Virus record (IMG/VR): IMGVR_UViG_3300005842_000010
Location: 1-64,000 of that record
Direction: 5' to 3' (one strand)
Length of the DNA stretch: 64,000 bases
Origin: a virus
Translations under genes and position numbers: made by a program
Notes under the pieces: generated by a model
Databases searched by the model: none
Told to the model about the DNA's origin: nothing
Seen by the model: the letters and a program-made list of their open reading frames with translations, nothing else
In this document: piece after piece, positions 10,985-32,700 of the stretch
Numbering within the stretch: the stretch's first letter is position 1
Layout of the letters: each line of letters begins with the position of its first letter

Positions 10985-11992
10985 TTATGACACAGGCGCG
11001 ACGGTTGGCAATGGGAAAGAGAGGCGGGCACCCTTCTTCAAATTTTGGACGGCCCACAGGGGTTGAAGGTTTTTGTATGAAAAACATTCTCGTTGCTGCG
11101 CCGGATCGCTCAAATCAAAAGAGCTAACAGGGCGCTTATGGTCAGCGTGCCAGCCATAGAAACCATATGTATCCCATGTCATTCCTGGCTGAAATTGAGA
11201 TTCGATGTGGGCGCGCAATTCGGCGGTAGTGCAGCCTATCAGCTCCATGCTCTTTCCACACTTGGTCGCCCCGGACAGTAAACGACCGACCATCGTGCGA
11301 ACGCTGGACAGCAGCCTCCAAAATGGATCTTTGGCTTTCTTGGCGCGGTATTTATTCCACGACGCTCGATCTGCTGCCTGGATTTCTTCCGGCGTGCGCT
11401 TCTTTCTTGGGCGGGCGAGAAGGCGTCGATATCGCTCCCTGTTTAGAATCCTCCACCTAGCACGGCGCTCAGGATCTTGATTGTATCGCTTCCTGCGTTC
11501 TCGGTGCTTTTCACGATAAATTCTGTCGTAGGCAGCACGGGCTTCGACCATTTTACGATACTCAGATCCATCACCAAGCTTCGCCGCAGCTTTTCTAGCT
11601 CGATGCCTTTCCCTTGTCCGAAATCGAAGTGTCTCTCTATGGCGTTCTCGATATCGTTTCTGGGCTGCGTCCGACTGTTGTTTTATTATTTCCGGTGTGC
11701 GAGTTCCCTTTTTCCTCACCTCTTTAACTGTGAAGCCAAGACTTTCTCGGTACGCCTTATATTGACTGTTCTCTTTCGCCCTAACGATCTCTGGATTGTT
11801 AGTGCGCTGATTCTTTCTTCTTGCGCTGATTGCCGCGCGATTTTTGCGATACCACGCCTTTGACCATTCGTTGTGCTTTGCCCTTTGGCCTGCCTCCGAG
11901 TTTTCCGTTTCTTCTGGAGGCGATTTGCTTTGCTCTGCTATTGGACTGTCCTCCAAGCCTACCAAGGGTAACTGCATATTTGTGGATTGCAT
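10985..11992 (-). CDS. Free-standing HNH endonuclease with long basic N-terminal region
   Basis: The C-terminal HNH module has HADHKRPVSSFDLSDPAQQ, then CFSYKNLQPLWAVQNLKKG, a type common in free-standing phage endonucleases. The first 230 residues are repeated Arg/Lys/Glu-rich helices (YRERHRETLRFRTRERHRAR) of the kind that bind DNA. The start is uncertain because the first 190 nt also encode a second plausible reading frame (11799-11999). It lies in the late operon between the capsid and small late genes and is likely a homing element. Confidence 0.75.
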   Translation of the reverse strand: MQSTNMQLPLVGLEDSPIAEQSKSPPEETENSEAGQRAKHNEWSKAWYRKNRAAISARRKNQRTNNPEIVRAKENSQYKAYRESLGFTVKEVRKKGTRTPEIIKQQSDAAQKRYRERHRETLRFRTRERHRARKAAAKLGDGSEYRKMVEARAAYDRIYREKHRERRKRYNQDPERRARWRILNRERYRRLLARPRKKRTPEEIQAADRASWNKYRAKKAKDPFWRLLSSVRTMVGRLLSGATKCGKSMELIGCTTAELRAHIESQFQPGMTWDTYGFYGWHADHKRPVSSFDLSDPAQQRECFSYKNLQPLWAVQNLKKGARLSFPLPTVAPVS

Positions 11993-12082: not shown

Positions 12083-13975
12083 TTAATACAAATTTCCGTA
12101 GGTTGGATTTTCGGTCTTACCAGTTACGATAGGCACAGCCTCATTCAAACCTTCCAGCCACCCACTATCAGATGGGCAGCTTACTATTCCGGTTTGAGTT
12201 TGCGATACCAGTGATATGTCCTTCGTCACATTCGCCATCGTGCAAGCGAACGTAGGATCCAGTCTCGCCAACTCTTCGAGCTGGCCGAGCGTGCGCTGTT
12301 TCCGGTTGCTGGCGATCATGCCGGGATAGATCGAACCGCCACGAGGACCCGGCTTGCCGATATCCAGAGCGAGCAGGAACCGTCCGCTCGACTTGATGCC
12401 TTCGTAATCAGCCGCGCTCACGAGGTCATCAAAGAATTCGTGAGTGACGAGGTTGATCGTGACTCCGGACGGGAATTTCGGCTTGAACGAGCGCCAGCTA
12501 AACCCGAGGGCATTGCTGCCTTCGTCGATGACGATGCGGGCAATGTCGCCGAATTCCTGTCGGACGTAAGCGACGAACGCGCTTTCCATGTTGGCCGCAT
12601 AAACCGAGTCCGTGAACCAATCGATGGAATTGGCCATTTTACCCTGGCTCTTGCGCGAGCGATAGATGCGATAGTTCTCATCCAGCCACTCGTAGAAGTT
12701 GAGCGTGTTGTTTTGGAGGTCGCTCACCTGGCCGCAAGTGCGGAGCTGCTCGTAAACGCCAATCATGTTGGCTCGGTAAGCGACCACTTCGCCGCCAGTG
12801 CCGGGATCAGTGTTGGTTCCGGTAACCGTGAGGATCTGCTCAAGATTCTGCCATAGGGCCAAAGTCTGATTCGCGCTAATCGGTTTGCCGAAGAAGAAGC
12901 TCATCAGCCAACGGCGTTGAAACTCTTCCTCATCCTGGCGATTGCGCTCGGCAAGCGGGAGATCTCCGAACTGTTGGAAATACTTGTTGCTTTCCATCAG
13001 GCGAGCAAACACCTCTTTGTAAGTCGAGCTCACGCAGCGGGTTCGGCGCATGGTTTGCACCCAGTACGGCACGACATGGCGAGGATCGAGCGTCGGCCGG
13101 TTCTGGCACCAGCTTTCAAAGTCGTTCACGTTATTGCCCATGGCGATGAGCAGGCCTGACGTCGGAGCCGAATCAATAGGTGTGCTAGATCCTGAATTTT
13201 CGCTCGTTATTAGCACATCCACGTAGGACAAGTCGGCTGCTACTTCCGAGGCGAGCACCTTCCATACGCCACGGGTCGAGGCACCGTTCCCGGCACGGCC
13301 AAGAAGCAATACCCGGTCACGATCGAGGAACCATTGACGGTTCATGTCGAGGCCGTAGCGAGTTACAACCCGGATCACCCGGTCACCAGCCGCTCCCAGT
13401 GCTTTATCGGCTGCTGTCAGCGGTCCAGTTACCAGTGCGGTATAGGCGCTATTGGCCTGGCCGGCTGTGATAGCCCAATAATCCTTGTTGATGATGCTGT
13501 CCTGGCGCGCTTTGACGAATGGATAAAGCAAGCCCGGCCCCCTGTCGATCTTCTCCATGTGCATCAGCGAACCAACGTCCTTCTGGGAACTCATCACCCA
13601 GTCGTACATACCGTTGATCTTGGTACCACAGGCAGCCATTTCGAATTGGGTCTGGAACCAGGCATCCATGTCACCGAACAGCCCGTCGGGCCGAAACAGC
13701 GATTCAAGCTGGGCAGGTGTCAGGTGCGCTACGCTCGCCCGCGTGATGGTTCCGCACGTATCGTAGTTGTTGGCAACCACGACGTGGCAGGGAGTCTCTT
13801 GGAAGCGCGCGCTCGTGGAGGTGACGCCCATCAGGGCAAATACGAACGCCCCGCCGGCAATGGGTACCGCGTGGCTTAATATGCCCGGCAGCGCAAGCGC
13901 TACGAGGCCGGTGAGAATTAACACGCCCAGAATCAGGACGGTTAGCTTAAACGGGAAGGACCAGGTTTTTTTCAT
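12083..13975 (-). CDS. Major capsid protein candidate with hydrophobic N-terminal region
   Basis: The 630-residue product follows portal and scaffold genes and has its own terminator, as expected for the major capsid gene. No HK97 motif is recognisable by eye, so the call rests on synteny and size. The first 55 residues hold two hydrophobic segments (about 10-30, LTVLILGVLILTGLVALALP, and 36-52), unusual for a capsid protein. Residues about 70-130 (CGTITRASVAHLTPAQLESL, then FRPDGLFGDMDAWF, GMYDWVMSS) are shared with the separate gene at 18289-18681. The RBS GAGAG sits inside a stem-loop at 13978-14024. Confidence 0.65.
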   Translation of the reverse strand: MKKTWSFPFKLTVLILGVLILTGLVALALPGILSHAVPIAGGAFVFALMGVTSTSARFQETPCHVVVANNYDTCGTITRASVAHLTPAQLESLFRPDGLFGDMDAWFQTQFEMAACGTKINGMYDWVMSSQKDVGSLMHMEKIDRGPGLLYPFVKARQDSIINKDYWAITAGQANSAYTALVTGPLTAADKALGAAGDRVIRVVTRYGLDMNRQWFLDRDRVLLLGRAGNGASTRGVWKVLASEVAADLSYVDVLITSENSGSSTPIDSAPTSGLLIAMGNNVNDFESWCQNRPTLDPRHVVPYWVQTMRRTRCVSSTYKEVFARLMESNKYFQQFGDLPLAERNRQDEEEFQRRWLMSFFFGKPISANQTLALWQNLEQILTVTGTNTDPGTGGEVVAYRANMIGVYEQLRTCGQVSDLQNNTLNFYEWLDENYRIYRSRKSQGKMANSIDWFTDSVYAANMESAFVAYVRQEFGDIARIVIDEGSNALGFSWRSFKPKFPSGVTINLVTHEFFDDLVSAADYEGIKSSGRFLLALDIGKPGPRGGSIYPGMIASNRKQRTLGQLEELARLDPTFACTMANVTKDISLVSQTQTGIVSCPSDSGWLEGLNEAVPIVTGKTENPTYGNLY

Positions 13976-13977
13976 GT

Positions 13978-14024
13978 GCTCTCATTCGTGCGCCGGCGGT
14001 AGTGCCGGTTTTCACTATGAGAGC
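13978..14024 (-). promoter_or_regulatory. RNA stem-loop overlapping the capsid ribosome binding site
   Basis: On the mRNA the 8-nt arms GCTCTCAT and ATGAGAGC pair perfectly around an inner CCGGC-ACTACC-GCCGG hairpin. The 3' arm contains the only purine-rich RBS (GAGAG) and ends 2 nt before the capsid ATG at 13975. The structure could limit capsid translation until opened, or be a processing site. Confidence 0.6.
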
Positions 14025-14030
14025 CATTAT

Positions 14031-15560
14031 CTACTTCCAGAGGACGGCCACAGCCCCTTCACCGAAGCTTTTTGCAGGTCCGGCATCAGGTTTTCCACCA
14101 GTCAACATATCAGACCCACTCGAAAGCGATGGTGGGCGCGCCGGTTCCGTTGGCCGGGCTGCTGGTTCTGGCTGTGGCGCTGGCTGCGGTTCAGGCTCTG
14201 GTTGTCGCACATTTGGATCGGCAGCAGGCTTACCATTGCCATTTTTGACGTATTTCTTCTTCGCCAGGGTGTCGCGACGCGCAATTTCGCGCTTTGCCCT
14301 GTCGGTAATATCGCTCTGAATAATCTCTTTCAGATCGCTCGCCTGGAGACAAATGCGCGTAGCTTTGAGATCGTCAAGCTTTTGCTGTTTTTGTGCATCG
14401 GTGCCCGGACCATCATAAATCTGCCGTTTCATCCGCTGCATATCGGCTATCGAGGTGAATTGCTTGCCGTTAATGATCTGTTCCTCGGCTGGGCCGTTGA
14501 GGATTTCGTTCTCAGTGGCGTTTGAATAACGGAGAATCGCGGCATGCGCCCACCGTCTATCGGCATCGTTCGGATCATTGGGATCGTGCCGGTGTGGATT
14601 GATTTGATACCCGTCCAGCTCGTCAACCTTTTCCAGCTCAGTCCTGATGGCTACCAGCTCCGCGGCAGCAGTTTTTAGGATATCGCAGGCGACTGGATCT
14701 GTCTCATCCACCTTGCCGACTGCCTCATTGCTCAGGTCCGGGCGCCCGCCACTGTCACGCAGAAGCTTGCCGAGCGCAGGATCGACGGCATCCACCATCG
14801 TAACAACAGCCTGCTCCACTCGTGATTTGATGACCGGTGCCGCTCGCTCGAATGCCTTCTCTGCCTGCTGCTTCTGAATCATCGGCTGCATCCGCTTTTC
14901 CCACAGTTCCTCGGCGCGCATCTCGACCTTGGCCTCGTCCATCGCCGCTCTATCGATTGCTGGCGCGTTTGCCTCATACCACTTGGTATGCTCGGCGTTG
15001 TCCCAATCGAATGTTTCATCCGGATTCTTTTCAAGCCAGTCATCTTGATAGGCGTAGGCCTTTTTGGAGAAAGCGATAAACTTCTCTGGCATGTCGGCCA
15101 TTTTCGGATCGTTAGCTGCCATGTAGCGCAGGATCTTGAGATCGCGAGCATCATCGGCCGTCAATTCAGGTCCATCCGAAGGCGCAGGCGATGGCGGTGC
15201 CAGTCGATCGGCCACGGCATCAGCCGCAACCCTGGCCGTACGCTGAATAGTGTCCTCGAGGCTTACGCTGACTGGCCTCGGTGCCGGGGCGGGTTCTGGG
15301 GCTGGCGCGGGCGCGGGTCGCGTTGGTGCCGGAGCGGGAGCAGGTTCAACGACAACCGGAGGCTCTGCTGGAGCAATAGCTGCCGGCGGCGCTGCAGGCC
15401 TAACAGCAGGCCGCGTATCTTCTCCCCACAACGCGGAGACAGCGCTTTTGGCCAAATCTTTGAGCTGCTCCGGCGTTGGCGGCGGCTCATTGCTGGGCTC
15501 AGGTGTTGGAATCTGCGGTTTCACCGGTTCCGGTGCCGTCCTGTGAACGATTTCGATCAT
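14031..15560 (-). CDS. Scaffold-like protein, Pro/Ala-rich
   Basis: The 509-residue protein lies between portal and capsid genes, the usual scaffold position. It has long Pro/Ala/Glu-rich ends (residues about 8-95 and 440-495, low complexity), an acidic helical centre (KKAYAYQDDWLEKNPDETF, EMRAEELWEKRMQPMIQKQQ) and a terminal GEGAVAVLWK. No protease motif is evident. It overlaps the small gene upstream by 62 nt. Confidence 0.65.
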   Translation of the reverse strand: MIEIVHRTAPEPVKPQIPTPEPSNEPPPTPEQLKDLAKSAVSALWGEDTRPAVRPAAPPAAIAPAEPPVVVEPAPAPAPTRPAPAPAPEPAPAPRPVSVSLEDTIQRTARVAADAVADRLAPPSPAPSDGPELTADDARDLKILRYMAANDPKMADMPEKFIAFSKKAYAYQDDWLEKNPDETFDWDNAEHTKWYEANAPAIDRAAMDEAKVEMRAEELWEKRMQPMIQKQQAEKAFERAAPVIKSRVEQAVVTMVDAVDPALGKLLRDSGGRPDLSNEAVGKVDETDPVACDILKTAAAELVAIRTELEKVDELDGYQINPHRHDPNDPNDADRRWAHAAILRYSNATENEILNGPAEEQIINGKQFTSIADMQRMKRQIYDGPGTDAQKQQKLDDLKATRICLQASDLKEIIQSDITDRAKREIARRDTLAKKKYVKNGNGKPAADPNVRQPEPEPQPAPQPEPAARPTEPARPPSLSSGSDMLTGGKPDAGPAKSFGEGAVAVLWK

Positions 15561-15855
15561 ATTGTTTTGTTGCGTAAACTGGCTTTAGTTCAGATGCCGT
15601 AAAACTGTACTTCTCACTGTGCTGCGCCATCAACTCGGCGACGTCTTTGTAGAAAATGGCCTTTCTCAAACATTCCCGAGATTCATCGTGCTGCGTCTCA
15701 TCACCCGCCCCCAGGTTGGCAGACTTTGCCAGAGATTCAGCCGCCAGATCAAGCAAGTGCTGGCGGTAAAGCAGGGCCGGGGTTTGGCGCAGCCATTCGC
15801 GGATTTGCCGCTGCTGCTCCACCGCCATTAGTTTCGGCAAGAGCTGTATCATCAA
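15499..15855 (-). CDS. Small helical protein between portal and scaffold
   Basis: The core EQQRQIREWLRQTPALLYRQ, then HLLDLAAESLAKSANLG is helical. It overlaps the portal C-terminus by 107 nt and the scaffold start by 62 nt; a second ATG (MAVEQQ, 15828) would shorten the first overlap. Role unknown, perhaps head assembly. Confidence 0.6.
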   Translation of the reverse strand: MMIQLLPKLMAVEQQRQIREWLRQTPALLYRQHLLDLAAESLAKSANLGAGDETQHDESRECLRKAIFYKDVAELMAQHSEKYSFTASELKPVYATKQYDRNRSQDGTGTGETADSNT

Positions 15856-18286
15856 GTGTTGGTAGATTATTTACTTTGAAAAGGACATCAATCTCTCTCT
15901 GGGTTAGCACCGCCTGGGTTTGCAACGCCTTCGTCGCTTCGAGTAATGGAGTGATTTCCTTTTGCACTTCGCCGTGAACGATCTTCACGACCATCTCGAC
16001 CATAGCCTGCAGCTCTTGCTGCTTCTCGGCCGCCTGCTGTTCCGGGCTGGTATTGGGTGCCACATTCCTAAATTTGAAATCCTTTTCGATGCCGGCCAGC
16101 CGGCAAATGCGGTTCAGCCACTCGAGCGCCTGATCCGGGCCGATGGACTGCATCAGCATCGGCACACTAAGAGATTGCTGCAAAATTAAGGCCATTGCCT
16201 GGGCGGCTTTCGCGTTGTCCTGACGATCGTTGCCGTCGCGCGTGCTGATAAGCGACCAAATCGGCATGGCCGAGAGGTGCTTTTTGTTCACTTTATAGAG
16301 GCGCCACTGGTCCTTGGGAACGATCAATTCCTCCTTTTTATGAGCGAGGAATCCCAAGTCGTTAAGCTGCTGCTGCGTCAGCGGAACGTCGCTCGGCAAG
16401 TGAACCCAGAAATCTTCGTCGCCGTATTGCATCAGCCCGATATAAAGCTGCCGCTTCCAGGCATCGCGGGCGATATCAACCGGCGTGGCGGTAAATTGAA
16501 GCCTCGAGCTGGTGCTCTGTTCGATGTTTCGAACTTCATCCACTCTCAGCTCGTGCGAGGCTGCCTGGGCAATCTCCTGGCTGCTCATCACCAGCACGCG
16601 CTCGAGTATCTCAAGAATCGTCCGGAGCACGTTCGACATTTCGGCCACGTTGCCTCGAGGGAAATTGAAGCTTTGAACCACGTCGGGAATGCCTCGGTTA
16701 CCGACCTGCAGCTTGAGCGCTTTCTTGCTCGAATAGCCGAAGATGTTCAGGAACCGGTAAAACTTTTCGCCGAGGTTCCTGAGCTGATCGATTGTGTCAC
16801 GCGCACCATGCCGCTGGTTCGGGTCACCAGTCATTAGCTGGTCCTCGTCGATAAAAGTCAGGTTGGCCAGATTCTGCTTACACGTCAGAATGATCTGCGT
16901 GAGCATGTTGCTGAAATGATCTTGGAACGGGAGGATCTCCAGGCTGAGGCTTGCATTCTTCGTGCGGCTCTCATCGGCGTCGTAGCCGTAGTAGATGACG
17001 GGATCATACGGTACCGGCGCCGCGTAGAGGATAGTGCATCCATCCCCGGCCACCATGAATCGGAACCACACCGGACAATCATAATCGCCGAGTCCATTCT
17101 CCTTCGGGATCAGCCGCTCCCAATACTCTGTAATCAGCACGCCCTGGTCGTTGTAATCCGTGCCGTAGTACAGGCTGCCGATCGCCTTCTCACGATCAAC
17201 CGACGGACTGCCCACTGAAAGCTCTGCGCCAAGCACCGCCCCCTGTGGCATCTTCCGCACAGGCATGCACGTCAATTGGCACCCGGAATAGACTGAGGTG
17301 AAAAACAACCGGTTATCTGCGATCAAATCCGTGCTGCCTAGCGCTATCCGGTCCTTGTTCCAGTAGTTTCCACTCAAGATCTCGCGATAGCGAGCGATGC
17401 GCCAGTAGCCGGCAAACTCACATCCATAGCCGTAATTGAGCGTGAAGGGCGGGTGCGCCAGGTCGTAGAACATGCGCGATGGATGAGGCAGGTGATAATC
17501 GATACCCTCACGATCAGTCACTTTGATTTCATCATTCAGGTTTGCCGGGGTGCCGTCATCCTTCTTATGCCCGAGCGCCACGTCGATTTCATCGGCATAC
17601 TTGCGCTGATCTTCCCAGTGCCACTCGTGCTTTGGAAATTGCAGGCACATCGAGTAATGCAACATTTTCAGCACAGCCTGCTTCGTCACGTCGAAATAAC
17701 CGTACTGCGTTGAAATCACCTGGACGCGATCGGTAAGCGCCTTGCATTTCAAGTTGAGCACTGTCGTTTGATCAACTGGCTCGTATTTGAAAAAAGGGGT
17801 CAGGCGGCGATCGTTCATTATCTTCGCCCACCGGATCGTGACGTACGATCGTACGAGCGGAACAAACACGTTGAAGAACGTCGGGACATTGAGACACTTT
17901 TTTAGCTGCTGAGTTTTGGGATCCATGACCTCAGTGATCATGTTTGTCAGCCCCCAACTCTGGAACGCTTTGTAAACTGACTCATCATTCGGGTCTTGAT
18001 CGGCCAGTTGCTGCAGGAGGGTTTGCGTCACCTGGCGGAATGGAGTTTCCCAAGCGGTATCGAGCGCATGATAAACCCGGTAGTCAGCGAAATTGCGCTG
18101 CATGCCCTCTTGAATGCGGGAGCGTATTCGATTGATCAGTCTGCCGCGTCGGGCCGCGAGAGCTAGCGGGATATCTTGATTATTGACATCGCCTTCCGGA
18201 ACGGCGAGCGGATCGATGCCAAGCCACTTCTCTAAGTTTTCTGGCGTGAGGCCATACTTCTTTAAGCAATTTAAGTCGGCTGACAT
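15749..18286 (-). CDS. Portal protein (podovirus-type, 845 aa)
   Basis: Large size, a helical N-terminal region (RGRLINRIRSRIQEGMQRNF), a central wing and crown portion with YxLPHPSRMFYDLAHPP and YYGTDYNDQGVLITEYWERL, and a C-terminal stem region with an AQAMALILQQSLSVPMLMQS helix before a disordered Ala/Pro-rich tail. It precedes the scaffold and capsid genes and lies near the terminase gene. It forms the dodecameric DNA gate of the head. The family match is by overall pattern; no single signature motif exists. Confidence 0.8.
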   Translation of the reverse strand: MSADLNCLKKYGLTPENLEKWLGIDPLAVPEGDVNNQDIPLALAARRGRLINRIRSRIQEGMQRNFADYRVYHALDTAWETPFRQVTQTLLQQLADQDPNDESVYKAFQSWGLTNMITEVMDPKTQQLKKCLNVPTFFNVFVPLVRSYVTIRWAKIMNDRRLTPFFKYEPVDQTTVLNLKCKALTDRVQVISTQYGYFDVTKQAVLKMLHYSMCLQFPKHEWHWEDQRKYADEIDVALGHKKDDGTPANLNDEIKVTDREGIDYHLPHPSRMFYDLAHPPFTLNYGYGCEFAGYWRIARYREILSGNYWNKDRIALGSTDLIADNRLFFTSVYSGCQLTCMPVRKMPQGAVLGAELSVGSPSVDREKAIGSLYYGTDYNDQGVLITEYWERLIPKENGLGDYDCPVWFRFMVAGDGCTILYAAPVPYDPVIYYGYDADESRTKNASLSLEILPFQDHFSNMLTQIILTCKQNLANLTFIDEDQLMTGDPNQRHGARDTIDQLRNLGEKFYRFLNIFGYSSKKALKLQVGNRGIPDVVQSFNFPRGNVAEMSNVLRTILEILERVLVMSSQEIAQAASHELRVDEVRNIEQSTSSRLQFTATPVDIARDAWKRQLYIGLMQYGDEDFWVHLPSDVPLTQQQLNDLGFLAHKKEELIVPKDQWRLYKVNKKHLSAMPIWSLISTRDGNDRQDNAKAAQAMALILQQSLSVPMLMQSIGPDQALEWLNRICRLAGIEKDFKFRNVAPNTSPEQQAAEKQQELQAMVEMVVKIVHGEVQKEITPLLEATKALQTQAVLTQREIDVLFKVNNLPTLDDTALAETNGGGAAAANPRMAAPNPGPALPPALA

Positions 18287-18288
18287 AG

Positions 18289-18681
18289 CTATATGGCGCG
18301 CTCAAGGAGTGAGTGATCAACCATGTCCCCGATACGTTCACCGAGTTCGATGATTGGACGCTCTATCTTAGGAATGAGCCTATTGTTCGACTCCATTACC
18401 CAATCATACATGCCGCGCGTTTTCCCCTCGAGTGCTCTCATATCAAACGACGCGTGGAAAAAGGCATCCATGTCATCAAACAGTCCGCTGGGTCTAAATA
18501 GCATCTCGAGCTGCGCTGGAGTTAGCTGCGCAATTGACGCTTGAGTGATACTTCCGCAATCTGGCGTAAATCCAGGCGGAGTTATTACCTTCCAAACTAT
18601 TGGCTCAAACTTTGGAATGAAGATAAGCGGAGCTATCGCAAGGCTTAACTTCGTGAAAAATGAACGACGGCTCTGCATCAC
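18289..18681 (-). CDS. Paralogue of the capsid N-terminal region with Tat-like signal
   Basis: Residues about 38-105 (CGSITQASIAQLTPAQLEML, then FRPSGLFDDMDAFFHASFDM, then TRGMYDWVMESN) are clearly homologous to residues 70-135 of the capsid candidate, about half identical. The N-terminus has QSRRSFFTK, then LSLAIAPLIFIPKF, a twin-arginine-like hydrophobic leader. It sits 2 nt upstream of the portal gene. It may be a minor head protein or an assembly regulator, or a remnant of a gene duplication. Confidence 0.65.
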   Translation of the reverse strand: MMQSRRSFFTKLSLAIAPLIFIPKFEPIVWKVITPPGFTPDCGSITQASIAQLTPAQLEMLFRPSGLFDDMDAFFHASFDMRALEGKTRGMYDWVMESNNRLIPKIERPIIELGERIGDMVDHSLLERAI

Positions 18682-18971
18682 TTGCCCATCTCGCGACGTT
18701 GCTTGATCAGCTCGGCGGGAGTCCTGGCCTTTTTCTTCGGAGTGGGCTTCGGAGTCTCTTCACCTTCATCGCCGCCAGCCGCGTCCAGGCTCATCACATG
18801 AAACCGATGCTCAAGCGGAGGCGTTTGCGTGTCGCGCACCAAGCCGCCCATCGCCATCTTTTCATCGTCGGTGTCCTTTACCCGCTTCAGCTTGGCGCGC
18901 ACGTAATCGCCGCCTTTCGCAACCACTGGATGATGCGCCGGAAGCCTAACCTCGCAAATCGGGTCTGACAT
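18678..18971 (-). CDS. Hypothetical first gene of the late operon, 97 aa
   Basis: The start is set at ATG 18971, 7 nt after the -10 box, rather than an upstream ATG at 19019 that would include the promoter. The N-terminal half (ICEVRLPAHHPVVAKGGDYV) is strand-like and the C-terminal half is Lys/Pro-rich. Function unknown. It ends in an ATGA overlap. Confidence 0.6.
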   Translation of the reverse strand: MSDPICEVRLPAHHPVVAKGGDYVRAKLKRVKDTDDEKMAMGGLVRDTQTPPLEHRFHVMSLDAAGGDEGEETPKPTPKKKARTPAELIKQRREMGK

Positions 18972-19022: not shown

Positions 19023-19313
19023 ATGAACATAACCAAAGTATTAGGAGATCGCGTACTCATCGAACCTCTACCCGTCGAACAGGTCAGCGCCGGCGGAATA
19101 GAACTGCCTCAATCCGTCCGTGGAAAACAGTCTGTCGGCATCGTGCGGATGGTTGGCGAAGGCACTGGCGACCCATCCATGCGTGCGCTCATGGCCGAAA
19201 TTGCAATCGGGCAGACTGTCAGGACAAATATCAATATGGGGAGCGTCGAGGTTACATTTAATGGCGCAGAGTGCCGGATTCACTCGGTTCGAGACGTTGA
19301 AATGATTCTGTGA
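19023..19313 (+). CDS. groES: GroES-like co-chaperonin
   Basis: The 96-residue protein has the co-chaperonin layout: KVLGDRVLIEPLPVEQVSAG, then GIELPQSVRGKQSVGIVRMV, then GEGTGD, with QTVRTN and a terminal VRDVEMIL. The mobile-loop region (about 20-33) is shorter than in bacterial GroES. Phage co-chaperonins such as T4 Gp31 replace host GroES to fold the large capsid protein inside GroEL. Its place next to the terminase gene and opposite the capsid operon suits that role. Confidence 0.88.
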   Translation: MNITKVLGDRVLIEPLPVEQVSAGGIELPQSVRGKQSVGIVRMVGEGTGDPSMRALMAEIAIGQTVRTNINMGSVEVTFNGAECRIHSVRDVEMIL

Positions 19314-23773: not shown

Positions 23774-24232
23774 CTAAAACTCTGGTGGTGTCCATGAAAG
23801 ATGAACTCCATCGGCTTGTACATCTGCCGTCAGCGGCATTGGCACCTGATCGTGGATACGAAAGTAGGCATCGTCGCCAAGCGCAGGCACCGAAATCGAT
23901 CTGGCCATCGTCGAATTGCCGATCGCCTGCCACGGCGAACTCAGTGAATCCTTGCGCTCAACGACAAATGGGCCTGTGCCACCCTGCCAGGTAATCGTAA
24001 TAATCCCACCAGCGACAGAAACCGATGCGACTGAAGCAGCTGGAGGCGCAGATGGGGCCGCGGCCAGTCTTTGCTTAGGTTGCACGACCTCTACAGAGAT
24101 TCGAACCTTCCTTAAACTGTCAACGAACTCGGTGTCCTTCGGGCTTCGAAGCGTCCGTCTCCATCCAGGGGGCATTGGCACAGCGGCCGCGACTGCGACA
24201 GACGAGGACAGAAATTTGCGTCGATTAAACAT
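23774..24232 (-). CDS. Tat-leader protein with Fn3-like domain, 152 aa
   Basis: The start FNRRKFLSSSVAVAAAVP is a textbook twin-arginine signal. The rest includes an Ala/Pro linker and an Fn3-like unit (GGIITITWQGGTGPFVVERK). It ends DVQADGVHLSWTPPEF, close to the end of the gene at 34212 (DGVHLSWV). Tat export would carry a folded protein to the periplasm. Confidence 0.65.
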   Translation of the reverse strand: MFNRRKFLSSSVAVAAAVPMPPGWRRTLRSPKDTEFVDSLRKVRISVEVVQPKQRLAAAPSAPPAASVASVSVAGGIITITWQGGTGPFVVERKDSLSSPWQAIGNSTMARSISVPALGDDAYFRIHDQVPMPLTADVQADGVHLSWTPPEF

Positions 24233-24587: not shown

Positions 24588-25355
24588 TTAATTTTCCACC
24601 CGTGTAATTATCCATCTGTCATCTGCCAGCCCGGGATTAGCGGCATAGTCGAACGGAATATAAAAAAAGCCCCCAAACGGTCCCCACGCCGCGCCGTATG
24701 AATTCTTGATCTTGAACAGCCGTTTAATTCGGTCGTAACCAACACACTTCACGGCATGACCTCCAATCGGTGAACGCTCCGAGTCATCCGGCAACCGGAG
24801 TATTCCAGTGCTCTCCATCTCGGGAGTTTCAAAGAACCCAAAAACACTGAATCCAAAGACAAACGGACGTTTAACCAGAGCAAGGCATTGCATCATCTCT
24901 GTCTCGCTCGGAGCAATGCGCCGGTACTCTAGGGCCTGGTTTTTCTCCGCAGTCAGGTAAGTATCGAACGGAGGCTGCTCTGTGAACTTGGAAATGTCGT
25001 AGGGCCAATCAATCTCAGGGCACACCCCTTGTTTCACAACTGACCTGATCGTATCGCGCAGCGAAGCCCCGGAGTCGTAGTCAACTGTTCCCTCAATATC
25101 TCGCGTGTTGTAGTACAGGAACAATCTTGACGGGGTGATGAAACTTAAGCCCTGGGCCTTGCGCTCGAAATCAAAAGCGGATGCCACGGAATTGGCTGTG
25201 CAACTGCCAAGTTGGCCTTGGTTGTAAACTGGAGGGCATTGCGCAGACAGGTCAACCACGTCCGGCAACACGGCATGAGGCATCGAGAAAACCCTATCTT
25301 GGATCTGGGGCAAATCCCTGACCCACCCGTAGCGTTTTATCTGTCGATGCTTCAT
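24588..25355 (-). CDS. Papain-like (C1A) cysteine peptidase
   Basis: The catalytic centre is visible: QGQLGSCTANSVASAFDFE with Gln46 and Cys52, a late GGHAVKCVGYDR with the catalytic His, and IKNSYGAAWGPFGGFFYIP with the Asn. There is no signal peptide. The 255-residue length suits a bacterial or viral C1A enzyme with no propeptide. It is surrounded by small membrane genes and lipoproteins, so it may act in host lysis as an endolysin substitute, or in virion maturation. No canonical endolysin was seen in the window. Confidence 0.85.
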   Translation of the reverse strand: MKHRQIKRYGWVRDLPQIQDRVFSMPHAVLPDVVDLSAQCPPVYNQGQLGSCTANSVASAFDFERKAQGLSFITPSRLFLYYNTRDIEGTVDYDSGASLRDTIRSVVKQGVCPEIDWPYDISKFTEQPPFDTYLTAEKNQALEYRRIAPSETEMMQCLALVKRPFVFGFSVFGFFETPEMESTGILRLPDDSERSPIGGHAVKCVGYDRIKRLFKIKNSYGAAWGPFGGFFYIPFDYAANPGLADDRWIITRVEN

Positions 25356-25356
25356 T

Positions 25357-25470
25357 TCATTCCCAACTCGCTAAAGCCATGCTGACCATCAGGCCAGTAA
25401 CAAATGCCACCGTACCCCAGAACAGGACTGCTGCGATCCTGAAAGCTGTGTCTATGAATTCATCTTTCAT
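25357..25470 (-). CDS. Single-span membrane peptide, 37 aa
   Basis: MKDEFIDTAFRIAAVLFWGT, then VAFVTGLMVSMALASWE. Its ATG overlaps the stop of the lipoprotein gene upstream (ATGA) and its stop lies just before the peptidase ATG. Possible lysis accessory. Confidence 0.6.
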   Translation of the reverse strand: MKDEFIDTAFRIAAVLFWGTVAFVTGLMVSMALASWE

Positions 25471-25733
25471 TTGGGAATTGGAGGCAGAGTAGTTGTCGAA
25501 TCAGCAGCAGATTTTAGCCCTTCATACTCTACACTGCTGATAACCACGTTTCCATCCTCATTGATATACGGCGTCTGGTGCCTCGTGAAAGCCACGGCAT
25601 GATTGGATGGTTGCGTGATGCGCTTGGCCACGGTCACGGTTGGCGGGGTTGACTTGAATGGCTGGAAAGCAATCTGGATCTGGCAACCGCATAGCAGGAG
25701 TGGAATTAACAGCCAGAGAAGTCGAAGGTTCAT
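25467..25733 (-). CDS. Small lipoprotein, 88 aa, outer-spanin-like
   Basis: A lipoprotein signal is visible (NLRLLWLLIPLLLCGC, lipobox LCGC, Cys about 15-17). The mature part is short and proline/threonine-rich. Size and location in a lysis-like cluster resemble an outer-membrane spanin subunit, but no partner is proven. Confidence 0.6.
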   Translation of the reverse strand: MNLRLLWLLIPLLLCGCQIQIAFQPFKSTPPTVTVAKRITQPSNHAVAFTRHQTPYINEDGNVVISSVEYEGLKSAADSTTTLPPIPK

Positions 25734-26377
25734 CTCGGACCCTTTAATTTCATCACGCCCTGGAGTTTAATAGTCGCAGCCGTCTTTTCATTCCCCGCCT
25801 GAGTCGTGATTTCCTGCAAAGCACCGACTATTGTTCCTGCGCGATAGTACTCACCAATCTGTGTCATGCCCTGAGAAAGCGGATAATCTGCCGAACTGAG
25901 TGTGATCATGTTCTCCTGAATCTGAACCAGCTTAGTTTTCCGGTTCGCATCCATGGTCGCTATCAAGGCGGTAGTGGACTGTTGAAGGAAGAAGTTTTTA
26001 TCAACCGAAACCCTGCCTCCGGCCACGCCAGCCGAGATTGCCGCCAGGATTGATTTGGCGGCCTCGCCAGAAATCAATGTTCCCGCCCCGCCCAGTCCTA
26101 TAAGAGCCAAGTCCGTGATGGTGTCAAATGTTGCCCTACCTTGATACAGGCCGTTGATAAACTGATCGTAATTCAGATCAGTCAGGAATATCAGATCGTT
26201 CAAAACTTGATTGCGTTGAACTTCCGGCACCGGATCGTTCGGTATGCCACCGGGCTTGGCGTATTTTGCGATTAGGTTTGCTGCCAATGAATTTTCAAAG
26301 GCGACCTTCTTTGGTGATCCTTTAGGGACACCGGCGCAACCGCAAAGCACCACAAGAATTATCGGTAAAAGTTTCAT
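25730..26377 (-). CDS. Lipoprotein, 215 aa
   Basis: MKLLPIILVVLCGCAG is a lipoprotein signal. The mature region is mostly helical, with a glycine/alanine-rich central segment (DLALIGLGGAGTLISGEAAK, then AAISAGVAGGRVSVD) that could insert in a membrane. The 4-nt overlap with the next gene suggests joint translation. Function unknown. Confidence 0.6.
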   Translation of the reverse strand: MKLLPIILVVLCGCAGVPKGSPKKVAFENSLAANLIAKYAKPGGIPNDPVPEVQRNQVLNDLIFLTDLNYDQFINGLYQGRATFDTITDLALIGLGGAGTLISGEAAKSILAAISAGVAGGRVSVDKNFFLQQSTTALIATMDANRKTKLVQIQENMITLSSADYPLSQGMTQIGEYYRAGTIVGALQEITTQAGNEKTAATIKLQGVMKLKGPR

Positions 26378-26547
26378 GGTCCTATGAAATTCCTAATCTC
26401 GTTCGCCATAAACCACATTCCAGCGCGGTAGTGGACCTGAGCGCAGCCAGGATACGCTTTGTCCCACTCGTGCGCAGATCTGTCAGCCAGCTCCGCCTCT
26501 TTAGAGATATATTCCCTGAGCGCTTCAAATTTTTCCTCCGCTGTCAT
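26374..26547 (-). CDS. Small acidic helical protein, 57 aa
   Basis: TAEEKFEALREYISKEAELA, then DRSAHEWDKAYPGCAQVHYR. ATG at 26547 directly abuts the stop of the upstream gene and TGA overlaps the next ATG. Unknown role. Confidence 0.55.
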   Translation of the reverse strand: MTAEEKFEALREYISKEAELADRSAHEWDKAYPGCAQVHYRAGMWFMANEIRNFIGP

Positions 26548-27087
26548 TTAACGCAAATGCGGCGGCAGAGGCTTGGCCGCTTTTAACAAAGCGGGATTCC
26601 CTGGCGGCAAACCTGCCTGCATCCCATTGCATAAATCCTTTCCATAGAGCCGGATCTCAGTGTCATTCGTGCTGAGGCCGGAAACCACCACGTTGAGCAG
26701 CGAGAGGCTTCCATTGATAATCAGTCGAGCTGTAACGTTTGTTACATTTGCCGCCTCAAGCGCTTTGACGATTTCAGAAGGCGTAACGTTTGTTCCGTTT
26801 GCCACTGCGCATACCACCGGAACGGCAGCGCGGACATGCGGTGTGGCTTCGGGATGAGTCTCAAGGCCAATCTGCTCGCCGAGCGTGACAGCGGCAGTAA
26901 ACGCCGCATGGCTCATTGCTGGGTTACCAGCACAACCCACGAACATCAGGCACACGCCGGCCAGGACTGCCGCGAGCGCTACAGTCAGCAGGCACAGCTT
27001 TTTCTGACGTTCAGCTTTTTCGGTTTCGAGCATCAGTTCATATCGGGTTCGGAGTTTGATGATGTTATTCATAAGCAGGGGTATCAT
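26548..27087 (-). CDS. Membrane-anchored or lipoprotein-like protein, 179 aa
   Basis: A charged N-terminal helix (about 1-30) is followed by a hydrophobic span with a lipobox-like end (CLLTVALAAVLAGVCLMFVG then CAGNP). The rest is Ala/Val/Asn-rich. The layout (cytosolic helix, one span, periplasmic domain) would suit an inner-membrane spanin. ATGA overlap upstream. Confidence 0.5.
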   Translation of the reverse strand: MIPLLMNNIIKLRTRYELMLETEKAERQKKLCLLTVALAAVLAGVCLMFVGCAGNPAMSHAAFTAAVTLGEQIGLETHPEATPHVRAAVPVVCAVANGTNVTPSEIVKALEAANVTNVTARLIINGSLSLLNVVVSGLSTNDTEIRLYGKDLCNGMQAGLPPGNPALLKAAKPLPPHLR

Positions 27088-27290
27088 TTTGCCTCACCCT
27101 GCGCCTCTGGCTGGCGCGAGTCAACAGCTAATCGTAACCCGGACGAAACGAAGATATCCACCTCCCGGGCTGGCCGAACACAAATCCAGTTGCAACCTTC
27201 CACTCCGGCACCGACATAATGCTCCATCAACTCGGGTATTGTCCGGCCACAGTGCGGACAGAGTATCGCCTTACTCTTTTGAGCCATCAA
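27084..27290 (-). CDS. Zinc-ribbon-like small protein, 68 aa
   Basis: One CPHCG knuckle near the N-terminus and a later CNWIC pair could bind one zinc ion. It overlaps the holin-like gene by 20 nt. Unknown function. Confidence 0.5.
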   Translation of the reverse strand: MMAQKSKAILCPHCGRTIPELMEHYVGAGVEGCNWICVRPAREVDIFVSSGLRLAVDSRQPEAQGEAK

Positions 27291-27540
27291 ATTCCTTCTG
27301 AGCCTTTTTCAAAGCCAGATCATCTCCTGTTTGAGCGAGGGGAACGTTTCCGGCACCAGCAGCAGCCAAACCATAGGTCACTGCCACCCCTTCGATGATA
27401 TGGATCGTGGCGCGGATCTGCTGGGAATAAATCTGAAACCACACCTCGAATATCTCCAGGCCCGTTTTACAAAACAGATAAGTCAACGCTGCATATCTGG
27501 TGTGTTTATTGGCCCATAATGCGGCAAAGACGTTCTTCAT
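27271..27540 (-). CDS. Holin-like membrane protein, 89 aa
   Basis: Two moderately hydrophobic helices (YAALTYLFCKTGLEIFEVWF and HIIEGVAVTYGLAAAGAG) with a charged C-terminus suit a small class II holin. It is coupled by 4 nt to the coiled-coil membrane protein upstream. The assignment rests on topology and place. Confidence 0.5.
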   Translation of the reverse strand: MKNVFAALWANKHTRYAALTYLFCKTGLEIFEVWFQIYSQQIRATIHIIEGVAVTYGLAAAGAGNVPLAQTGDDLALKKAQKEFDGSKE

Positions 27541-27869
27541 TTTTTAATAAAGAAAAAGAGTAGCCCGATACCTACGCTGGCCGCAATAGCCCAGAGCACG
27601 ATGGTGATGCTGCTTTTCCCTCCTCCGGCAGCAATTGCGTCTCGGACAGTATCGCGCCATTCATTGGCTCCGACCTTGTATTCTTTCAAAGCTTGTTCAG
27701 TTTTCTCGCTGGCCTTTTCAGCAGACGCAAACGCGGCCTTGATAGCTTCTTTGTTTGCCGCGTTACGCTCATCCATGAGCTTCTCGAAAGCCAAACGAAG
27801 CTCCCGCTCAGCCTTGATTCGCTCAGCTATGACTTCGATTTTATGGCAGTTGGTTTCATCGTTGCTCAC
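27537..27869 (-). CDS. Coiled-coil protein with C-terminal membrane span
   Basis: Residues about 10-80 are a helical coiled coil (ERNAANKEAIKAAFASAEKA, then SEKTEQALKEYK) and the last 25 are hydrophobic (SITIVLWAIAASVGIGLLFF). It resembles a group of phage proteins found beside holins, of hemolysin XhlA-like layout. It is the first gene of this lysis-like cluster. Confidence 0.6.
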   Translation of the reverse strand: MSNDETNCHKIEVIAERIKAERELRLAFEKLMDERNAANKEAIKAAFASAEKASEKTEQALKEYKVGANEWRDTVRDAIAAGGGKSSITIVLWAIAASVGIGLLFFFIKK

Positions 27870-27924
27870 AAATACAAAACTACTTCGCCATCACCGGAAG
27901 TGCGAGAATGAAAAAATTTCCACA

Positions 27925-28650
27925 TTAGAAAGGCTTGAAACAGGCAGTCGGAGTGCCGATAGTAAACGTAATCGTGGCATATTCCCCGTTCTGCAAAAGC
28001 ACCGTGTTCTGTCCGATGGTGGAAAAAATAGTTCCTCCGTTTATGCCGACTGTGCCCGTCACAGAAATTCCATCAACATACACGACGCAATTAACCCCAA
28101 GCGTATTTGTCCAGTTTACCGGGCTTGCTCCGATAGTTATTGAAGTGCAGGCGACAAGATTGGAACGATAAGAAGCAAGGCCGTTAGTGGACGTGACAGC
28201 ACCTTTGAAAATAGCGTTCGTGCTGAAAAGCCAAGTTCCAGTGGTTGATCTTGAGTAGTAAGTTTCCATTGCACTGGCGACAGACGGATCGTTATTATTC
28301 CCATAACCAACCGTTGTCGATTGAGCCAGATACATCAATGCCTGAGCTAGAGAAAGCACGTAAGATGACCCTACTTGGAATGTTGGCCTGCTTCCAGTGT
28401 AAAGAATCCCATCTGTGGCGGATGCGGTAAATCCATAGCTGGGTGAGTTAAAAGCTCCGCTTCCTAGCTTGATTGTGGTGTTTGTGAATATTGGGGTATA
28501 TCCGTTTGTCACCACCCCCACTGGAAGGTTGGCCAGTCCGATGGAGCCTACGGTATCAGTCCCGCCAATCACTTGCCTGATTCCGTCTGCGGCATAGACG
28601 CCGAGAACGATGAGGCAACCAAGGGCGAGGATTAGAAGGGATTTGATCAT
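27925..28650 (-). CDS. Exported strand-rich protein, 241 aa
   Basis: A signal peptide (MIKSLLILALGCLIVLGVYA) is followed by ADGIRQVIGGTDTVGSI, a segment shared with the next gene upstream. The rest is Thr/Ser/Gly-rich beta structure with a VNCVVYVDGISVTGTVGING stretch. It may be a surface or virion fibre protein. Confidence 0.6.
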   Translation of the reverse strand: MIKSLLILALGCLIVLGVYAADGIRQVIGGTDTVGSIGLANLPVGVVTNGYTPIFTNTTIKLGSGAFNSPSYGFTASATDGILYTGSRPTFQVGSSYVLSLAQALMYLAQSTTVGYGNNNDPSVASAMETYYSRSTTGTWLFSTNAIFKGAVTSTNGLASYRSNLVACTSITIGASPVNWTNTLGVNCVVYVDGISVTGTVGINGGTIFSTIGQNTVLLQNGEYATITFTIGTPTACFKPF

Positions 28651-29072
28651 GGGAAAACCAGTATTTCAACGGGTGCGTTAATCAAAAGGTCATTCCCAAG
28701 GCCATCTCCATCAAAACTAATTTGCACAGTAAGAACATCTGAGCTAGTGCGCTGAATTGTTGCCTTGGCGAAGTTGTTTGCCGGACCACTATATTGAATC
28801 GTGGCCCATGTTTTGTTGGTCGTAAAAGCTCCCGTTAATGTAGCTGTATAATTTCCAGGGGCGCCGTACCCCCAAACAATAGCTCCAATTCCGTTAGCCA
28901 TAACTGTCGCTACTGGAGCCGCTGTTCCGGTTTGTGTTAGGGTTGCGCGATAAGATTTTACAACCGTATCGGTCCCGCCCACGACTTGGCGCACGCCATC
29001 AACTGCGTTCAACCCCAATCCAATTAGCGAACTGACACAGACTATTGCGATTAAGGTGATGAAGTTTTTCAT
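28647..29072 (-). CDS. Exported strand-rich protein sharing an N-terminal module, 141 aa
   Basis: The start is set at ATG 29072 (KNFITLIAIVCVSSLIGLG), not 29096. After the signal peptide comes AVDGVRQVVGGTDTVVKS, nearly the same as in the following gene, then beta-rich sequence (GAIVWGYGAPGNYTATLTG). It looks like duplication of an export-plus-anchor module. Confidence 0.6.
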   Translation of the reverse strand: MKNFITLIAIVCVSSLIGLGLNAVDGVRQVVGGTDTVVKSYRATLTQTGTAAPVATVMANGIGAIVWGYGAPGNYTATLTGAFTTNKTWATIQYSGPANNFAKATIQRTSSDVLTVQISFDGDGLGNDLLINAPVEILVFP

Positions 29073-29182
29073 AATGGCATTGTAACGTGACCCCATTCCT
29101 GATAAAGAATAGACGGCGAACGGACGGTTCTGGCCGTCTCGATCGCCTGAACACGGTCAACCTTGAAAAGAAAGGTCGAACA

Positions 29183-29710
29183 ATGTCTGAACAGATAATC
29201 GCAGAAGTGGAGGAATGGCGTCCAGTAAAAGGTTTTGAGGGATATTTCGTTAGCAACCTCGGAAGGATTAAAAGCTCTCCAAGAAGAACTCACAGGAAAG
29301 AAATTATACTCAAGGCATCTGGTAAAAGATATTTGCACGTCAGCCTGTACCGGAATGGTGTCGCCATTAATTGTGATGTCTACTTGGTTGTTCTTAAAGC
29401 ATTTCTTGAAAAGGACGACCCAGAAAGAGATTGGGGGAACCACAAGGATGGAAACAAAAAGAATAACAGATTGGAAAATCTTGAATGGAGCACTCCATCT
29501 GAAAATACCAACCATGCTCATCATGTGCTTGGCTATAAGCGGTGCGGAGAGCAATGCGCTTATTCGACATTTACAACGGCGCAAATAATTGAAATGAGGA
29601 AGGATTTCCGGGCTGGAGTAAGCACTGGAGAAATAGCCAAGAGGCTTGGAAGGAACAGGACTACTATATACGCTATTTGCTATAGAAAGAATTGGAAACA
29701 TATTCATTAA
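29183..29710 (+). CDS. NUMOD4-HNH homing endonuclease, antisense in the operon
   Basis: The start is chosen at ATG 29183 after an AAGAAAGG RBS. Residues about 10-40 are NUMOD4-like (EEWRPVKGFEGYFVSNLGRI), then HNH (HKDGNKKNNRLENLEWSTPS, then ENTNHAHH), then an HTH tail (TGEIAKRLGRNRTTIYAIC). It lies on the plus strand between two minus-strand genes with almost no spare sequence, a recent-looking insertion of a free-standing homing endonuclease. Confidence 0.88.
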   Translation: MSEQIIAEVEEWRPVKGFEGYFVSNLGRIKSSPRRTHRKEIILKASGKRYLHVSLYRNGVAINCDVYLVVLKAFLEKDDPERDWGNHKDGNKKNNRLENLEWSTPSENTNHAHHVLGYKRCGEQCAYSTFTTAQIIEMRKDFRAGVSTGEIAKRLGRNRTTIYAICYRKNWKHIH

Positions 29711-32700
29711 GGCCATGTAACCACGCAGACGCTATCGGAATCTAATTCCAACCGCAGCCCAATAAGCCGAGATGTTGTAGCTTGTATTGCTGAGGTGACA
29801 GAAGTTAGTTGAACCGAAACTGTCGTGCTGCTTACTGAGGTACTCCATGAGTTCACCACCGTTGCTGTAGTTCCCGGAATAGTAGAAATTAGTGATGCCT
29901 GAGAATTTGTCGCGGTCACTGTCCCGGACAGGTTTTTTGCGCTGATGGATATATCTTCTCGGCACGAGGTCAGATCGCTCCCGCTCTTAATTTCAGTTGT
30001 TGCTGATAGTTTTGCTCCAAAACAAGTAAGTGAAGTTGGCAACGTTATTGATACAACCGTCGTCGCAGAATTTGTAGTGAAAGTTTTAACCCCGCCTTGA
30101 ACAATCTGTCGATTCACCACATTCCCAGTTCCATTGTCAGTTGAGAGAGCGATCTGATTCGTTGCGACCTGTAAGCTCGGCTGAACATTCCAGCCTACAT
30201 TAAATGAGTTGGCTGTGTTGTTTGTGAATAATTTTCCATAGGCAAAACTGAAACCACCAGCCGCTTCATTTCTGATACTTTCTCCGAAAGTAACCGCACA
30301 CTGTCCTGTTGCGGTTAGCCAGCCGAAAACATTGGAAGAAACGCCGTGAACAAATGCCCCGTTTCCATGTGCCCAAATGGTGCCTATTCCGTTAGCATAG
30401 CCCGAAGCCGATCCACCTTTCTGAACATTTTGACCGGCAACAAGGTCACCAACTTTAATAACAGAATTGCTTTCTGCCTGTCCCCACGCTGTCGTTCCGT
30501 TTCCATAGGTGATAATCATACCATTGGTGCCGCCTATGTATCCCCTAGCCATAGACCCAGGCCCGTATGACTCAATAAGCCCACCATTCTCTGCATCTCC
30601 GTACGCCATGGTTCCAATATCGTGCGCAATGATTACACCGCCATTAGCCACACCAAATGCCAAGGTTCCACTTGCGTTAGCGGTTATATTGGCAGATCCG
30701 TTCAAAACCGCCTGACCAAATCCGAACGAACCAAATCCAGATGATAGAATACTGCCGCCATTAGAGGCACGGCCTGCCGCTATCGCCCCTTGGAGTGATG
30801 AGGTAATGGTCCCGCCAGTTATGGCGTCACCAAAAGCAAATGTTCCAGGTTGAGATGCCAGAATTGTGCTGCCTGAGGCATTGGCATGGCCCCACGCCAT
30901 CGCGCCTAACTCTGATGTTTTTATGGTTCCTGCCGCCTGAGCCTGCCCTCCAGCCAGCGATCCTTCACCGTCAGCGTAAATCAAACTGCTCGCACCAGAT
31001 GCAGATCCGAGTGCGAAAGAACCGACAGCATCCGCTAACATTATCGCGGTGGCATTAGTCTGACCCGCAACAAAGGTTCCAACTGCGCCAGCCGAGAATT
31101 TAGCCACCTCTTTTGTTGCTGGGTTGCTGTACATGATACCGCCCTCTGGAACATTTGTTACCCAGAAATTATTGGCAGTGGAAGAAACGCTACTCACATA
31201 GTTGCTTAACCCACCACCATTGGCCGGGCTAAATCTAATCACAGTACTGCTCGCGGCAGGCACCGACACCGTGAACGAATTGGTGTATGAGCCAAGCAGC
31301 GCATTGGTCCAAACTTCAGTCACCACCGCTGGATAATTACTGGCGAAATTAAGTTGGCCCCAGTTGACCGTGAGATTTGTTGCCGCGCTCGGATCTTCAT
31401 TACTGAAGAACACCGCAACATCACCGCCAATCAATGGTCGATAACAAATCTGGTTTGTCGGGCCAAAGTTGATAACTTTGAACCCGCTGTTGGCCCCGCG
31501 CAACTGATCCTGCCAAACTGAGATTTGACCAGCGTTCGTGACGGTTAGTCGAAATGAGGTGTTGGTGAGCACCCCGCCGCTCGCGCTACGTATCCATTCA
31601 TCACCACCAGTGATGGCCATGACACTCAGCAGATCCTTGCAGTCAGCATAGTTCCATGAACCGTCATATAGAAGATTATCGGTTTGAGGTATCCAATGAA
31701 TTGTGCCCGCTTCCCAATTAGTGAGAGAATGGATGGATGATCGAAGTGCTCCGATGGCCAGTCTCAAGACTCCTGAACTTCCTGGTTCGTTTACGACCAC
31801 CCCAGACTCCAGGGCCACACCGTTTGCCTCTCTCTGAAATGACACTGGGAATGGAGGGTAAAACCAAAGATAATTCAGGATCAGTCCATGGGTCCGGTTT
31901 GTGTAGTAGTGAAACCAATCCGAACTCGCCGATACTCCGGGATACGCTAGTGACCCAGGCCATGTCGCAGATCCTCCATATCCGCGCATTAGCTGTTGGG
32001 CAGAACCAGGTGTGCCGGCAAAGGCCGTTGTCGTGTCCTGAAATGTAACCCCACCAACACCCCACTGGTAAAACGTGGTGATGTCCAAATGCTTCGAGCT
32101 TGGCGTAACCATAGGCTGCATCAGACCACCTCCAGGGATTCCGTTCGGGCCATTGGGATACATCCAAAATGTTGCGCCGGTGAACGCATCCACATCAAAC
32201 TCAGTGTTGTTCGTCTGAACCGGGCGAGTGTCTCCGTAGAGCGTTAACCAACCCTCGAAATAATTTGTGCCAAGATAGTAGAATAAATTGGTTCGGCTCA
32301 CCGTCTGCATCGGCCATGAATTGGTATTCCAGGCGAGCACACCGTTGGCATCACGGTGGTTGGTTAGGAAGTAATTCTCGATACCGAATGCCCGGATGAA
32401 ATCGTAGTTTGTCAATGTGCCGTAGCCATACGCAAAGAAGTTGCTGATGGCCACCCGCATAGTGGCCTCGCTGGTCACACCGTTCACCCCGGACGCTATA
32501 ATGAAAGCCGGGTTTCGCTGGTTCGAGTTAATGTCATTCCCGGGAAGGTCTTTCATGCCCGAGGCAGATCCACCGTTCAAATCGTTATACCACGAAAAGC
32601 TATAACCATCCTCCGTCTTGCTCATGTTACTGTACGTGCGGCCTATCGGCTCGCGTCCTGCGTCATAGTTATTCCATCCGAGCGTGAGCAAGTAGCCTTC

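Follow-up and report, generated by a model that had tools for sequence, protein, structure and literature searches.

Tailed phages are usually taken to make soluble, cytoplasmic major capsid proteins, and the N-terminus of proteins with the HK97 fold generally faces the inside of the shell. Membrane contact is known for the T4 portal: the prohead of this phage is described (PMC9958956) as beginning on a gp20 portal that is bound to the inner membrane, and gp23 loses 65 residues from its N-terminus. T4 head assembly offers in this way a precedent for an inner-membrane prohead and for N-terminal removal from a capsid protein; the attachment described there is of the portal and not of the capsid protein, whereas in the virus analysed here, which belongs to a family of uncultured tailed phages, a membrane-like leader is found on the capsid protein itself. 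In the open-access literature, covered in part through titles and abstracts, no description was found of a tailed phage whose major capsid protein begins with a membrane-like leader.

A hairpin placed at the start codon constitutes the coat-protein operator of MS2-type phages. In T4, hairpins shape the start site of genes 25 and 38, whose ribosome-binding sites are split (PMC3014915).

The window is the whole stretch of DNA analysed, 64,000 nucleotides long (bases 1-64000 of the 79,434 bases of IMG/VR virus record IMGVR_UViG_3300005842_000010). The genes around the capsid gene are arranged as follows:

12083..13975 (-): predicted major capsid protein of 630 aa, with the HK97 fold and a hydrophobic leader
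14031..15560 (-): putative scaffold gene, 509 aa, in the interval between portal and capsid, from position and composition
15749..18286 (-): portal protein of 845 aa, matching SU10_portal weakly, under the gathering cut-off
18289..18678 (-): paralogue of 129 aa, a free-standing duplicate of the capsid N-arm immediately ahead of the portal
18678..18971 (-): small gene that shares a TGATG overlap with the start of the paralogue, with a relative in L011
19323..20903 (+): terminase large subunit, from a profile match

The portal call is supported by the co-conservation of this gene with the capsid and terminase genes, and the capsid gene, near both of them, occupies the place expected for an HK97-fold major capsid protein. 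The 509-aa product is proline-rich, gave no Pfam or PHROG match and is probably a scaffold, as judged by its position. No tblastn match to the capsid or the portal was obtained among the named phages of INPHARED, and a pattern scan of GTDB genomes, made for host assignment, found no prophage relatives. A GroES-like co-chaperonin gene (19023-19313 (+), PHROG 3188, E 1.3e-7), with relatives in L009 and L020, adjoins the terminase gene; gp31 of T4 is a comparable capsid-folding co-chaperonin. Immediately downstream of the capsid gene lies an endonuclease VII-like gene (10985-11992 (-), PHROG 1035, E 3.4e-6).

Within the capsid gene the following parts could be distinguished:

12134..13528 (-): HK97-fold core, residues 150-614, from Foldseek and VIA-align
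13580..13762 (-): N-arm segment common to the capsid protein and its 129-residue paralogue
13811..13975 (-): hydrophobic leader, residues 1-55, missing from leaderless relatives
13889..13945 (-): residues 11-29, the first span, strongly membrane-like (crude biological-scale sum -3.8)
13814..13870 (-): residues 36-54, the second and less hydrophobic span (crude sum about +4)
13829..13831 (-): ATG inside the frame (M49) that might serve as a second start, close to the start position of leaderless relatives

The protein gave no Pfam or PHROG match at E <= 0.1. The well-predicted part of its AlphaFold2 model (built with 30 relatives, pTM 0.60) matched the capsid proteins of phicrAss001 (E 1.4e-7) and Vibrio phage VP1 (E 4.5e-7) in Foldseek, and residues ~157-612 were aligned by VIA-align with VP1 (Z 10.8) and phicrAss001 (Z 10.7), the structural matches covering 235-254 residues at 9-14% identity. 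Because of these matches the 630-residue protein is, judging by its model, an HK97-fold capsid protein; structure prediction, which the initial annotation had proposed as a check on its capsid candidate, has borne that candidate out in the core. The core fold and the terminase/portal neighbourhood are like those of the HK97-fold capsids of phicrAss001, VP1 and SU10, from which the window protein differs in its longer N-arm and its hydrophobic leader. The segment shared with the paralogue belongs to the N-arm ahead of the core, where the model shows three short helices at low confidence. About 40 loci of capsid relatives were found in IMG/VR, and more could be reached via the N-arm alone.

The open reading frame begins with MKKTWSFPFKLTVLILGVLILTGLVALALPGILSHAVPIAGGAFVFALMGVTSTSARFQETPC, and no other candidate ORF of the window has an N-terminal Kyte-Doolittle peak as high as its 2.96 over 17 residues. 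Two N-terminal hydrophobic spans had been claimed from the first inspection of the DNA; the first is clearly membrane-like, while the second is just moderately so and ends in the VTST motif common to most other leaders. Across members the leader is built on one plan, with a short basic start, a strong span and a weaker span over ~40-60 residues, and in most of them it finishes in a PFLAVTST-like ending. By eye, an AxA-like site is present in some leaders only, and no consistent site could be seen at the leader end.

A comparable leader is found, by sequence comparison, in about ten different viruses (that of the window, L011/L020, L014/L015, L016, L017, L018, L019, L021, L023 and L054/L060), and its distribution is patchy. 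The leaderless relatives (L003, L006/L025, L005/L024, L048 and distant groups) lack this segment and have their start at the conserved core (MADRFxETPC and similar), at the point where the leader stops. Since some of these have capsids 56-69% identical to that of the window and start directly at the core, the leader is an accessory module that has come or gone more than once. On the capsid tree the presence and absence of the leader need four changes, of which at least two are forced by starred branches, and the leader-bearing L023 adjoins the leaderless L024. In the closest pairs the leader gave dN/dS values of 0.2-0.4 against 0.04-0.08 for the core, the 40-codon estimates being noisy and more distant pairs near saturation; this segment, which is translated, appears to be under purifying selection. 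An assembly artefact was ruled out, as contigs of several metagenomes carry the leader, and the idea that leaderless relatives encode it as a separate small membrane gene was rejected when no consistent neighbour was found. The repeated gain or loss at a single joint provides natural comparisons (L023 with L024, the window with L003), and comparing leader-bearing with leaderless capsids could show what membrane attachment does in head assembly.

An RNA hairpin, which the initial annotation had not remarked on, fills the gap behind the preceding, putative scaffold gene and lies directly before the capsid AUG:

13976..14027 (-): RNA hairpin, from the stop of the upstream gene to the capsid AUG, z about -5 to -6
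14024-14017 (GCTCTCAT) and 13985-13978 (ATGAGAGC) (-): outer arms of the hairpin

It is the strongest of the 37 gene starts tested in the window (mean z of the others -0.2). In 28 of 29 genomes the first letter of the upstream stop lies 47-74 nt ahead of the AUG, the value of -8 in L046 being taken as a frame error. Among 42 diverged capsid genes z was below -2 at the capsid start in 35, and the last pair lay 6 nt or less from the AUG in 39. The arms vary in sequence yet fit their own partner (-12.6 kcal/mol, against -6.9 kcal/mol when swapped), and none of 20000 permutations reached the observed mean over the 42 sequences. This alignment-free test of covariation, which replaced a covariance model whose sequence-based alignment kept just the inner stem, is conservative, because close relatives are included and swapped arms therefore pair better. 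No match was found with the Rfam covariance models. The hairpin precedes the leader ATG in leader-bearing members and the core ATG in leaderless relatives, which gives independent support for the capsid start codon and indicates that the leader was inserted or removed between the AUG and the core.

As in T4 genes 25 and 38, a hairpin forms between the upstream sequence and the AUG and ends near the AUG. The hairpin seen here differs in standing at a capsid gene, in its larger size (~45-55 nt) and in spanning the gap after a gene; moreover, the anti-SD duplex scan found no consistent Shine-Dalgarno site before the hairpins of the window group. The likeness to MS2-type operators consists in a start-codon hairpin whose loop letters are conserved within one subgroup (GGCAAUNANGCC), but in most members the hairpin stands before the AUG and does not contain it. 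The hairpin may couple capsid translation to that of the preceding gene, or may act as an operator for a protein; this covarying element, which has no family in Rfam, is a candidate for controlling how much of the upstream protein is made relative to the capsid.

The initial annotation had also described 65 capsid residues recurring in a 130-residue gene before the portal, with a twin-arginine-like hydrophobic leader of its own:

18565..18678 (-): paralogue leader, weakly hydrophobic, loosely twin-arginine-like (MQSRRSFFTKLSLAIAPLIFIP)

The recurrence is real, but it comprises 61 residues (capsid residues 72-132, 62% identity), and it is not due to chance given the E value of 7.4e-23 in the genome record. 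Translation could start at ATG 18678 (129 aa) or 18681 (130 aa), the former being the likeliest because of the TGATG overlap with the preceding gene, and the stop is placed 2 nt before the portal ATG. The description of the leader needs correction: hydrophobicity is weak (Kyte-Doolittle 1.62, crude sum +7.6), and SRRSFFTK is just loosely alike to a twin-arginine motif, with the lysine one place late, a weak core and no AxA seen. A 152-aa protein encoded elsewhere in the window (23774-24232 (-)) has a better twin-arginine-like start (MFNRRKFLSSSVAVAAAVPMPPG). The search for the shared segment in other phages, likewise proposed at the outset, showed that the capsid copy recurs: 12 other virus records hold that copy only, and among 39 N-arm loci no stand-alone copy was found outside the window virus, for which two further contigs carry the paralogue (IMG/VR 3300026035_000398 and 3300009176_000829).

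Synonymous divergence between the paralogue and the capsid is saturated (p 0.78) and nonsynonymous divergence is 0.27, which points to an old copy kept as a protein. The contrary view, that the paralogue is a decaying, functionless by-product of a partial duplication, seems to us somewhat unlikely. Its confinement to the window virus, the loss of the Ala-Cys-Gly that is invariant in the capsid N-arm, and a GC3 lower than that of the capsid N-arm and the portal would agree with decay; the frame is nevertheless open and tightly packed against both neighbours, and nonsynonymous changes stay far under synonymous ones in spite of the age of the copy. The comparison of GC by codon position leaves aside the rows for the capsid core and g113, which were out of frame. 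The C-terminal tail of the paralogue is its own, and its predicted structure was poor (pLDDT 52, pTM 0.25) and was excluded from use.

The initial annotation had read the leader as touching lipid, as serving a membrane-linked step of head assembly, or as being cut off, which is plausible. Our preferred reading, with a probability of roughly 0.4, is that the leader would anchor capsid subunits to the membrane while the head is assembled, and would later be removed or buried; it is suggested by the strongly membrane-like first span and, by analogy, by the T4 precedent of a membrane-attached gp20 portal and the N-terminal removal from gp23. In this scenario a separate, dispensable leader, placed ahead of the N-arm of an HK97-fold protein, would act as a signal-anchor or a hairpin and keep new capsid subunits at the inner face of the cytoplasmic membrane, where the prohead would form while they are membrane-held, in the manner of the T4 prohead on its membrane-bound portal, and removal or burial would come upon head maturation. 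With the capsid AUG directly after it, the RNA hairpin would probably couple the translation of the putative scaffold and the capsid. In the window virus alone, the duplicated N-arm with its own leader would be translated together with the portal and would probably become part of the initiation complex or of the shell that surrounds the portal. Against membrane anchoring stand the weak second span, the leaderless capsids of relatives at 56-69% identity and the barely hydrophobic leader of the paralogue. The generally internal N-terminus of the HK97 fold is awkward for a membrane lying outside the shell, and a retained anchor would consequently need lipid within the head, or few anchored subunits. 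No prohead protease was recognisable among the subset of ORFs whose proteins were scanned. The further-reaching version, in which the capsid subunits would be membrane proteins, the shell as a whole would be built on or around the host membrane with lipid in the prohead or virion, and the N-arm paralogue would be a membrane-bound starter at the portal vertex, is improbable.

The main rival to membrane anchoring, possible if tentative, takes the leader to serve assembly inside the head without any role at the membrane; its spans would pack mutually or on the scaffold in the prohead, and it would be a small, variable counterpart of the N-terminal delta domain of HK97 or of the 65-residue pro-region of T4 gp23. 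The position of the N-arm before an HK97 core, in capsids whose N-termini are generally internal, is consistent with this, as are the variable length and sequence of a leader that comes and goes and, in the account of T4 cited above, the loss of the gp23 N-terminus; a first span that is a typical membrane segment with a basic start argues for the membrane instead, and the presence of a separate putative scaffold gene also speaks against this rival. The internal ATG of the window, together with a GTG at the matching leader-core border (VTST motif) in L020 and L015, a few residues later than the window ATG, would allow two capsid forms, a minor membrane-bound one from the hairpin-marked AUG and a major short one from the internal start. 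This arrangement is clearly unlikely, as the internal start showed neither a hairpin nor a convincing ribosome site, and L016, L017 and L021 have neither ATG nor GTG at the border, so that the leader could not be skipped there by such a start.

Export of the capsid by a leader acting as a genuine, cleaved signal peptide is very improbable: the leader looks tripartite, and several other genes of the window phage have signal-peptide-like or lipobox-like starts, but by eye no consistent AxA site is seen at the leader ends and export would take the capsid out of the compartment where tailed-phage heads form. Least credible of all is a misread start with an untranslated leader, which the initial annotation had itself named as a way for its view to fail. 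The window does have an internal ATG; the protein with its leader is conserved in about ten viruses, however, dN/dS stays below 0.5 in the closest pairs, and the hairpin marks the same AUG, and on these grounds this explanation was rejected.

Some minor observations concern other hydrophobic termini. The capsid of L011/L020 carries an extra 19-residue hydrophobic C-terminal tail (QLPWAFLIAASLAIGGLLC; L011:16050-16109, L020:9840-9899), whereas its closest relatives stop after NLY. Signal-peptide-like or lipobox-like N-termini occur on several proteins predicted in 25467-33186 (-) of the window, including one of 1159 aa whose C-terminal domain is a melibiase and two similar small proteins (27925-28650 and 28647-29096). 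A papain-family cysteine peptidase (24588-25355 (-), PF00112 E 3.3e-8, PHROG 16701) adjoins two lipoprotein-like genes.
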